A stretch of 64,000 nucleotides of DNA. Source: Acidimicrobiaceae bacterium. Lineage in GTDB: Bacteria > Actinomycetota > Acidimicrobiia > Acidimicrobiales > UBA8592. A program made the translations under genes and the position numbers. The number at the start of each line of letters is the position of its first letter. The first letter of the stretch is position 1. Of the stretch, positions 47,608 through 50,411 are shown piece after piece. Below the pieces are notes generated by a model that searched no databases, had not been told where the DNA came from, and saw nothing but the letters and a program-made list of their open reading frames with translations. The stretch covers positions 1-64,000 of the forward strand of contig JAHECR010000015.1 in assembly GCA_024641655.1 (NCBI GenBank), in the 5' to 3' direction.

Positions 47608-48366
47608 ATGACGAGCTGGGCCTTCCTGGACCACGCCGGGCCCCTCGCGATCGCGCACCGGGGCGGGGCGCTCGACGCCCTGGAGAACTCGCTCGAGGCC
47701 TTTGCCGCTGCTGCGGCTATGGGATATCGCTACGTGGAGACCGACGTGCACTGCACCGTCGACGGCCACGTCGTGGCCTTCCACGATGATCGCCTCGACC
47801 GTGTCACCGACCGGACCGGACGGCTGGACCGCCTTCCGCTCTCCGAGGTGCGTCGCGCCCGCATCGGCGGATCGGCGCGCGTCCCCCTCCTCGAGGAACT
47901 CCTGGAGGAGCTGCCCGACGTGCGGTTCGCGATCGATCCCAAACACAACACCGTGGTCGAGCCGCTGGCCCGGCTCATCGCCCGGATGGGGGCGATCGAT
48001 CGGGTCTGCATCGGCTCGTTCTCCTCGCGGCGCATCGAGCGCGCCGTCTCGCTGCTCGGGCCGCGGCTGTGCACCGGCATGGGCCCACGTTCGGTTGCAC
48101 GCCTCTGGAGTGGCGTGGGCCTGCGCTCAACGCACTCCGTGGCCGGGGTCTGTGCACAGGTACCCACTCGCCGCGCCGGCGTGGAGATCGTGACCGAGCG
48201 ATTCGTCGAACGAGCCCATGCGCTCGGCAAGGTCGTGCACGTGTGGGTCGTCGACGATGCGGTGGAGACCGAACGGCTCCTCGATCTCGGCGTCGACGGC
48301 GTGATGACCGACCGACCGAGCATGCTCCGCGACGTGATGGTGGCCCGGGGTCACTGGGTCGCGTGA
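47608..48366 (+). CDS. Glycerophosphodiester phosphodiesterase
   Basis: A 252-residue GDPD that splits glycerophosphodiesters into glycerol 3-phosphate and an alcohol. The catalytic set is complete: AHRGG (residues 15-19), ENS near residue 27, ETDVH for the metal ligands, and FHDDRLDRVTD. FAIDPK and the C-terminal GVDGVMTDRPSML are as in the family. No signal peptide is present, so it acts in the cytosol. I chose ATG 47608 over an in-frame start at 47476 because the leaderless -10 spacing fits and the extra codons overlap the pyk start. Confidence 0.9.
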   Translation: MTSWAFLDHAGPLAIAHRGGALDALENSLEAFAAAAAMGYRYVETDVHCTVDGHVVAFHDDRLDRVTDRTGRLDRLPLSEVRRARIGGSARVPLLEELLEELPDVRFAIDPKHNTVVEPLARLIARMGAIDRVCIGSFSSRRIERAVSLLGPRLCTGMGPRSVARLWSGVGLRSTHSVAGVCAQVPTRRAGVEIVTERFVERAHALGKVVHVWVVDDAVETERLLDLGVDGVMTDRPSMLRDVMVARGHWVA

Positions 48367-48421
48367 CGCCGCGCCCGCGTTGACGGGCCGGGCACTTCGG
48401 GGCTCCCGGCCGGCTGACATC

Positions 48422-48430
48422 TGTGGACGA
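48422..48430 (-). promoter_or_regulatory. DnaA-box-like motif TCGTCCACA
   Basis: One mismatch to TTGTCCACA. A second weaker copy (TCGCCCACA) follows at 48433-48441 in the same orientation, giving a tandem pair spaced 11 bases. Confidence 0.35.
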
Positions 48431-49034
48431 CCTGTGGGCGAACCAGGTCGAATCTGGGGATTTCCCCGGTATCGGTCGGATAACCCTGGGGATTTCCCAA
48501 AGGCCCTTGACCAGGGCTTTCGGCGGCGCGAAGGTGACGACACGCCAGCGACAACGGCAGGCAAGACAACCTCGCAGAGAACCCAGCGGATGCGGTGGCA
48601 GCATCGACACCCGGGACGGAACGAGCGGGACCATTGCTCTTGCTTGTGCGGCCGCTGGAACAGGTTCAGTGGCGGGTGGCGCATTCGTGTGGCACCCAGC
48701 CCGGCAAGAGTCGGACTCCGGTCCGGTTCCGGTCGGGACTGTCACGTGGGAAGGTCGGCCTCCGGGTTCGGCACGAGCACGGGGCAGCCGCATCCACTCG
48801 GTCCTTCGGGTCCGGGTGGACGGGAGACGTCAGGCAATCGACGGCGGCCTTCGGGTCACGGCGGCGGCAGGGCGACCCGACGGTTCGGCGCTCTCGGGCG
48901 ACAATCGTTGTGGAACCGCCGGCAGGCGAACGGTCCCTCGGGAACAGCGCCCCCGGCACCCTGAACTGCACCGGCCCCGAAGTGCCGACCCGGTTCGCCG
49001 GGCGGCGTTCGGGGCCTTCGTGTTTTCCCGATGG

Positions 49035-49067
49035 TGTTCCTCTCGCCGGTGCTGTTCCTCTCGCCGG
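49035..49067. repeat. Direct repeat with 18-base period
   Basis: TGTTCCTCTCGCCGG occurs at 49035-49049 and again at 49053-49067, with a degenerate third part after it. The period of 18 bases would preserve a reading frame. Confidence 0.6.
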
Positions 49068-49104
49068 CGTTCTTCAGCGGACACACCGCCGCAGTCGGTC
49101 GAAG

Positions 49105-49113
49105 TTGTCCACA
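49105..49113 (+). promoter_or_regulatory. DnaA-box-like motif TTGTCCACA
   Basis: Exact match to the high-GC actinobacterial DnaA box, in the gene-free region. Confidence 0.45.
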
Positions 49114-49293
49114 GGGAGCGCCCGTGCACTCCGGGGCGCCGGCCCATCGCCACCATCGGTCCCCGGGCCGGCGCGGACGTGGTCGCGCTCGATGGGACTC
49201 AAGGGGGTAGTGTCTGCACATCCACATCATTGCCCCCATTGGCCACAGGATTTCCCCAGGATTCCCTTCTGGCTCCTCACAGGCCCCCCGACG

Positions 49294-49299
49294 TAGGTT
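49294..49299 (+). promoter_or_regulatory. -10 box TAGGTT, leaderless spacing, overlapping a DnaA-type motif
   Basis: TAGGTT is followed by seven bases and ATG 49307. The exact motif TTGTCCACA (49298-49306) overlaps the end of this box and touches the start codon. Confidence 0.5.
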
Positions 49300-49306
49300 G
49301 TCCACA

Positions 49307-49594
49307 ATGCAGGTCGACGAGCGAACTGCGACGACGTCGGGAGATGAGGCAACGATGGCCATGTTCGAGATCACGATGACCGACCGCACCACCGAGTGCC
49401 TCGTCGAGGCCGAGGCGTACCAGCAAGAGGGACCGATGACCACGTTCTTCCGCAGCGACGGCGGGCGGGGGACCCTCGACTCGTGGGCGACGCGCCTGGC
49501 CAGCTTCCGCTCCGCCGACGTCCTCATGATCCGACGCCGCAACGACTCCATGGCCGACCGTCCGATCCTCGACCTGGTCGTCAACAGCGCGTGA
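49307..49594 (+). CDS. Small protein of unknown function
   Basis: A 95-residue protein with a short beta-rich core (MAMFEITMTDRTTECLVEAEAYQQEGPMTTFFRSD in outline) and a later segment LASFRSADVLMIRR. No known motif is seen. ATG 49307 fits a leaderless transcript (TAGGTT seven bases before it). A second possibility is ATG 49355, which has GGAGATGAGG upstream and would give 79 residues; both may be used. It is the first gene to the right of the DnaA-box region. Confidence 0.6.
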   Translation: MQVDERTATTSGDEATMAMFEITMTDRTTECLVEAEAYQQEGPMTTFFRSDGGRGTLDSWATRLASFRSADVLMIRRRNDSMADRPILDLVVNSA

Positions 49595-49730
49595 GAACCG
49601 ACCAGGGTCGGCGACGGCGTCCTCCTTGCGGCCCGGTGATCCGACGACACGGGTCGGGACGGCACCTCCCGAGGTCGTGCGCTACCTTCTGCCCAGCGCA
49701 GCAACCGGTGCGGCGCTGAAGGGAGACACC

Positions 49731-50411
49731 GTGCCACCGATCGTCCTCGTCCACGGGATGGCGACCTCGAACGCCCGAACCTGGGGGGAGACCGGCTGGC
49801 TCGATCTCCTCGCCGACGCCGGCCGCGAAGTACAGCCGATCGACCTCCCCGGCCACGGAAGCGCCATGGACCTCGACGACCAGGCGGCCTACGACGACGT
49901 CGAGGGCTTCGTCCTCGACCAGTTCCCCGACGAGCCCGTCGACGCCATCGGCTTCTCGATGGGCGCGCGGATCCTGCTCGCTATCGCCGCAGCGCACCCC
50001 GAGCGCTTCCACCGGCTCATCGTCGCGGGCGTCGGGAAGAACCTCTTCGAGAGCGACCCTGAACGGGGCAAGGCGATCGCGGCAGCGATCGCCGGGGAAG
50101 AGAACCCCGAGGACCCCGAGGCCCGGCACTTCCACGCCCTCGCCGACGCACCCGACGTCAGCCGGGAGAACCTCCAACGGTTGATGCAGCGACGGGGCAC
50201 GCCGCTGACCCCGGACATGCTCGGGTCGATAACCTGCCCGGTCCTCGTCGTGCTCGGCGATCACGACTTCGCCGGTCCGGCAGACCCCCTGATCGACGCG
50301 CTCCGCGACGGGCGTCTCGTGACGCTTCGCAACGTCGACCACTTCGCCACGCCCAAGGACTTCGCCTTCATCGACGCAGGCCTGGAGTTCCTCGACGCTG
50401 CGCCGATGTGA
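49731..50411 (+). CDS. Alpha/beta hydrolase
   Basis: A 226-residue alpha/beta hydrolase. The strand IVLVHGMATSNARTW (about residues 5-19) leads to the oxyanion hole, the nucleophile Ser sits in GFSMGARI (about residue 77), the Asp is in VVLGDHDFAGPAD, and the catalytic His is in NVDHFATPKD. I chose GTG 49731, with GGGAG five bases upstream; 35 in-frame codons before it are unsupported. The stop overlaps the next gene by four bases (GTGA). The substrate is unknown. Confidence 0.85.
   Translation: MPPIVLVHGMATSNARTWGETGWLDLLADAGREVQPIDLPGHGSAMDLDDQAAYDDVEGFVLDQFPDEPVDAIGFSMGARILLAIAAAHPERFHRLIVAGVGKNLFESDPERGKAIAAAIAGEENPEDPEARHFHALADAPDVSRENLQRLMQRRGTPLTPDMLGSITCPVLVVLGDHDFAGPADPLIDALRDGRLVTLRNVDHFATPKDFAFIDAGLEFLDAAPM

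Follow-up and report, generated by a model that had tools for sequence, protein, structure and literature searches.

A stand-alone structured RNA gene with a predicted DnaA-box array ahead of its promoter in Acidimicrobiaceae

Analysis of a 64,000-nucleotide stretch of Acidimicrobiaceae DNA (hereafter the window) indicates that the segment 48367–49306 carries a stand-alone, large structured non-coding RNA gene with its own predicted promoter and terminator; that this promoter would be controlled by DnaA is the reading that we favour, by a modest degree. Computationally, the segment was resolved into a five-site array, a promoter-like site, a structured RNA and a terminator, all in a position away from oriC. 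The original prediction had taken the segment for a possible replication origin or DnaA-titration site. Its origin reading was refuted and its DnaA site outside oriC was supported at motif level, while the RNA and the phased array at the promoter had been missed.

The RNA gene and its fold

A sigma-A-like promoter was predicted on the plus strand at 48507–48535, with the −35 box TTGACC, a 17-bp spacer and the −10 box GAAGGT. The −10 box itself is weak, and its A2 and T6 are kept across the aligned homologues; from this promoter we infer the position of the transcription start site. Downstream of it lies a structured non-coding RNA of ~487 nt (48540–49026, plus strand), which takes up half of the segment and was recognized by homology, covariation and folding, and on these models a stand-alone non-coding RNA gene at these coordinates is near certain. 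The segment can therefore not be called gene-free, as had been claimed, and a protein gene found no support in it. Because the homologues (window excluded) carry 2–12 stops per frame in all frames, the open frames that run across the segment in the window were ascribed to its G+C content.

Homologues of the RNA were found in 16 of the 20 family genomes, 15 by the covariance model and one more by a DNA search, and in the DNA search of the family a conserved block was seen directly after the array. The RNA is 381–507 nt long in the relatives, whose loci share one plan: a glycerophosphodiester phosphodiesterase (GDPD) gene, at 47608–48366 on the plus strand in the window, followed by the array, a TTGAC −35 box, a 17-bp spacer, a weak −10 box and the RNA, with an additional short gene between the GDPD gene and the array in several relatives. 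The homologous RNAs end in a GC-rich hairpin with a T-run, and these terminators are kept. The named carriers are Acidimicrobiaceae or Acidimicrobiales assemblies, and nearly all of the genomes compared are draft assemblies, mostly incomplete ones from metagenomes. Outside the family, the RNA model (R1) matched nothing in 397 genomes of the order and 395 of the class (overlapping draws), aside from a match inside the smc gene of one genome (G278) that was taken as chance. Exact-pattern matches in Mycolicibacterium and Cupriavidus failed a tighter pattern and were likewise treated as chance, and the viral contigs of IMG/VR held no match to the conserved-block pattern. One contig titled Myxococcales (L049) holds the Acidimicrobiia RNA locus and is probably mis-binned. 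One 1.4-Mb assembly (G009) has two very similar copies of the locus (L041 and L051), one of them with many N, which probably reflects a strain mixture.

The fold is laid out by a helix in the 5′ domain (P1), a long-range closing helix and the terminator, all on the plus strand. In P1, CCAGCG (48545–48550) pairs with CGCTGG (48653–48658), and among the homologues CCRRYG pairs with CRYYGG, with both sides varying. In the structure tested, 96.9% of cells were paired, and none of 500 shuffles scored as high on pairing or covariation. The closing helix joins GGTTCAGTG (48663–48671) to CCCTGAACT (48959–48967) around a variable multi-hairpin domain, its strands reading GGUUUAACG with CGUUAAACU in the low-GC species, GGAAUACGA with UCGUAUUCC in the relative G001 and GGUUCAGUG with CCCUGAACU in the window. 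Six of its nine pairs have changed on both sides, with 97% paired; this count comprises four distinct sequence versions and is not blind, the partners in G001 and the window having been sought at an anchored spot just before the terminator. Shifting the partner by 1–3 columns destroyed the pairing. The intrinsic terminator follows at 48972–49026, a GGCCCCGAA...TTCGGGGCC hairpin and then TTCGTGTTTT.

The same plan of P1, closing helix and terminator emerged when the sub-groups were folded apart and when G001, whose alignment is poor except at P1 and the closing helix, was folded alone. The minimum-energy fold of the window RNA itself departs from the consensus plan; this RNA folds only slightly better than its shuffles (z −1.5), where a low-GC homologue reaches z −6.6. 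In the window and several relatives, YNMG tetraloops cap the hairpins far more often than shuffling would predict; GNRA loops, which take over at some hairpins of the low-GC sub-group, show no clear enrichment. With its many predicted stable hairpins and closed, multi-branched layout, the RNA looks more like a scaffold or a binding partner of proteins than a simple antisense RNA.

Among the covariance models of Rfam 15, the window had no match at the gathering score and eight homologues had none at E ≤ 1; the single match obtained was at chance level (E 4) and lies outside the RNA. RNase P RNA and tmRNA were set aside, the genome's own copies being elsewhere (on contigs C74 and C32, respectively). 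The synteny of Ms1 RNA with a HAD hydrolase and an oxidoreductase is not seen here, the neighbours being the GDPD gene, an alpha/beta hydrolase gene and a gltD-like gene. By this modelling the RNA constitutes a structured family, supported by covariation, that has not been described before.

The five-site array and its reading as DnaA boxes

The array consists of five direct repeats (CTGTGGA / CTGGGGATTTC) on the plus strand at 48421–48496 and ends ~10 bp before the −35 box. Site 1 (48421–48431, CTGTGGACGAC) is DnaA-box-like, reading TCGTCCACA on the minus strand, and is followed at 11 bp by site 2 (48432–48442, CTGTGGGCGAA). Site 3 (48454–48464) reads CTGGGGATTTC; site 4 (48475–48485) is degenerate in the window (GTCGGATAACC), with CTGTGGA or CTGGGGA at the same place in relatives; and site 5 (48486–48496) reads CTGGGGATTTC, with CTGAGGATTTC in relatives. 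The tandem minus-strand pair of the original prediction, TGTGGACGA at 48422–48430 and TGTGGGCGA at 48433–48441, is present, as are its three GGATTTCCC motifs at 48458, 48490 and 49248. The only YTGTGGR-N5-TGTGGR tandem pair in the 3.9-Mb assembly is the one at 48421, and in the relatives' genomes the 11-bp pair pattern matches a few other places too.

Across 18 homologues the sites are largely kept at about −84, −73, −53, −32 and −21 from the −35 hexamer, so that DnaA-type boxes stand in fixed register to a predicted promoter, as at DnaA-regulated promoters. All sites share one orientation, and their spacings are near whole turns of 10.5 bp, which places them on one helical face; some sites in some species fail the simple text pattern used for them. 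This fixed register and helical phasing fit DnaA molecules assembling cooperatively ahead of RNA polymerase. In the mechanism that we propose, DnaA would oligomerise on the array in a cooperative manner, along one face of the helix, and the bound DnaA would set transcription of the RNA, from the presumed start site, according to its level or nucleotide state, by which the RNA would be tied to replication or growth rate. Control of the RNA promoter by DnaA is, like the binding, inferred from the sequence.

That the array sites are DnaA boxes is likely from their motifs. Sites 1 and 2 are of the TGTGGA/G type and in some relatives are perfect TGTGGATAAC boxes, as in the family's oriC. A DnaA-box matrix built from the relatives' oriC boxes alone gave 2–4 matches per array against 0.1–0.4 in shuffles, recovered the dnaA flanks on both dnaA contigs, and in all three genomes tested put the array first by density among the 120-bp clusters of its contig (187, 115 and 77 kb). 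Such a scan had been suggested with the original prediction, and it lends motif-level support to a DnaA site outside oriC.

The array pattern was also searched in the 397 order genomes, where it was found at this locus in 12 family genomes and in one genome of another family (G065), while reversed-pattern controls gave zero throughout; ~0.05 chance matches are expected over all searched genomes by a rough estimate from base composition. In G065 (L117:1501-1800) the sites and a TTGAC box are spaced nearly as in the window, and the neighbouring genes differ, being of ABC-permease and DNA-ligase type. Downstream of this array a terminator-like hairpin follows a stretch of ~165 nt, a short GC-rich putative RNA to which no Rfam family matched. 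The matching fourth and fifth sites make a chance match in G065 less likely, on the thin evidence of a single genome. In the GDPD-adjacent gap of other families the neighbours differ, and the array is absent from the stretches read.

Among E. coli loci, datA and DARS are clusters of DnaA boxes outside oriC. A comparable titration or reactivation site, in which the array would lower or reset DnaA activity and the RNA gene would be concerned only indirectly, is an unlikely but serious alternative, to which we assign roughly one chance in several. The box density of the array equals that of oriC on the contigs compared, and the window genome has a second box group at 49105–49306. Against this, the distance between the boxes and the −35 box of the RNA promoter is fixed in the 18 homologues, and the G065 array also precedes a promoter-like site, both of which speak against a pure DnaA sink, since such a sink needs neither. 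As the left-hand boxes form a phased array before the RNA promoter, control of transcription by DnaA is no less likely than titration.

To a similar, low degree we credit another transcription factor acting on TGTGGA/TGGGGATTTC repeats, with the likeness to DnaA boxes partly coincidental. Sites 3–5 are in part TGGGGATTTC and TGAGGATTTC, weak by the usual DnaA-box consensus, from which they stray in several species; several sites are TGGGGA or TGAGG, poor boxes compared with TGTGGA, so another regulator is possible, and any activator that oligomerises would be served by the phased spacing. However, the matrix derived solely from oriC boxes puts the array on top, some arrays hold perfect TGTGGATAAC boxes, and the upstream region of dnaA in G001 has a tandem pair of the same form.

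Downstream neighbours and the replication origin

The alpha/beta hydrolase gene downstream (49650–50411, plus strand) follows the RNA in most relatives, in several of them a few tens of bases after the terminator. We nevertheless regard it as very improbable that the RNA serves this gene as a cis-acting leader (riboswitch or attenuator), as a different gene follows the RNA in G001, a 98-codon ORF and ~600 bases separate the RNA from the hydrolase gene in the window, and an alternative anti-terminator pairing is not evident. The ORF occupies 49298–49594; for its core (49361–49591), neither a Pfam match nor a homologue among the other 19 genomes of the family was found.

After the terminator and immediately ahead of this ORF stands a second, looser DnaA-box-like group, oriented opposite to the array (49105–49306, minus strand in the sense of the array), with TTGTCCACA at 49105, TTGGCCACAGGATTTCCCC at 49239 and TTGTCCACA at 49298 at a similar but looser spacing. 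It includes the two exact boxes first reported, TTGTCCACA at 49105–49113 and 49298–49306 (read on the plus strand), and the one-mismatch copy TTGGCCACA at 49239, all of which are present. No equivalent of the group was seen in the relatives' loci read. Since the exact boxes lack a counterpart there, the right-hand boxes are probably a local addition outside the conserved module.

Over the 64-kb window, TTGTCCACA-type boxes with at most one mismatch are not enriched (8 against 6.05 expected), and four of the eight are concentrated in the segment 48367–49306, with a binomial P of ~3e-6 for one chosen 940-base stretch and ~2e-4 for all stretches, values that are post hoc, the stretch having been picked on account of its boxes. 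Exact TTGTCCACA occurs seven times in the 3.9-Mb assembly, twice in this segment and twice on the contig that carries dnaA (C102). On C102 two exact TTGTCCACA boxes face each other (L017:1853-1874, G000:C102:14352-14373), between a peptidoglycan-binding-type gene and parB, ~7 kb from dnaA.

The order on C102 is a box-rich gap, dnaA, a second box-rich gap, dnaN, recF and gyrB, and genes of parA/parB, jag and yidC type flank dnaA on the opposite side (gene names taken from translations). Cumulative GC skew, calculated contig by contig, drops to a minimum beside dnaA on C102 and rises after it. At the RNA locus the sign of the skew is unchanged on the window contig and on the corresponding contigs of two relatives (G004:C20, 187 kb; G003:C121, 115 kb). 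On a second dnaA contig used as control (G004:C35) the local switch is shallow and lies <10 kb from dnaA; as a guide to the origin, skew is clear in the window genome and weaker in the relatives. Of the two observations named beforehand as telling against an origin, a skew minimum beside dnaA was found and a box density at background level was not: the segment holds a DnaA-box cluster, and it lies neither beside dnaA/dnaN nor at a skew minimum. A chromosomal origin detached from dnaA, for which the intergenic box cluster would speak, is thus refuted to near exclusion, because a canonical oriC with clustered boxes and the skew minimum is found beside dnaA on C102 and none of the three genomes switches sign here; the oriC identity was dropped on these grounds.

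Relation to known systems and biological meaning

The genes that DnaA is known to regulate code for proteins. Where DnaA boxes are arrayed beside promoters, DnaA activates or represses depending on its bound nucleotide, and such promoters, including those of nrdAB, dnaA and sda, have clusters of strong and weak boxes (PMC8203912). The locus described here is alike in its cluster of strong and weak boxes beside a promoter and differs in having a large structured RNA as its target and an array built of five in-phase direct repeats; small or non-coding RNA is not mentioned in the main text of that article (PMC8203912). CcnA of Caulobacter crescentus, which is presumably activated by CtrA, is likewise a non-coding RNA tied to replication control with its gene near DnaA boxes, but it lies inside the origin (PMC8959179), whereas the present locus is away from oriC. 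Ms1, a stand-alone actinobacterial RNA of several hundred nt (PMC9130861, PMC4191392), resembles the RNA in type and size; it is flanked by a HAD hydrolase and an oxidoreductase, Acidimicrobiia being unmentioned in PMC9130861, whereas the flanking genes here differ and the RNA is multi-branched. The ornate bacterial RNAs OLE, GOLLD and ROOL share the large multi-branched form (PMC12286853), and in contrast the present RNA has neither a match in Rfam nor its conserved-block pattern in IMG/VR. From datA and DARS, which it resembles in having a box cluster outside oriC, the locus differs by the fixed register of its boxes to a promoter.

More tentatively, and with less confidence than in DnaA control itself, DnaA assembled on the five-site phased array may switch the multi-branched, stand-alone RNA in step with replication; the RNA would then serve as a regulator of cell cycle or growth rate, or as an RNP scaffold, of a type so far undescribed. 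On this reading the array module would be more ancient than the RNA sequence in its recognisable form, given that in the family of G065 the array stands before another, short putative RNA. If true, replication control would gain an RNA output in a lineage of actinobacteria represented here almost entirely by assemblies from the environment. The low-GC homologues of the RNA give a defined, testable fold.
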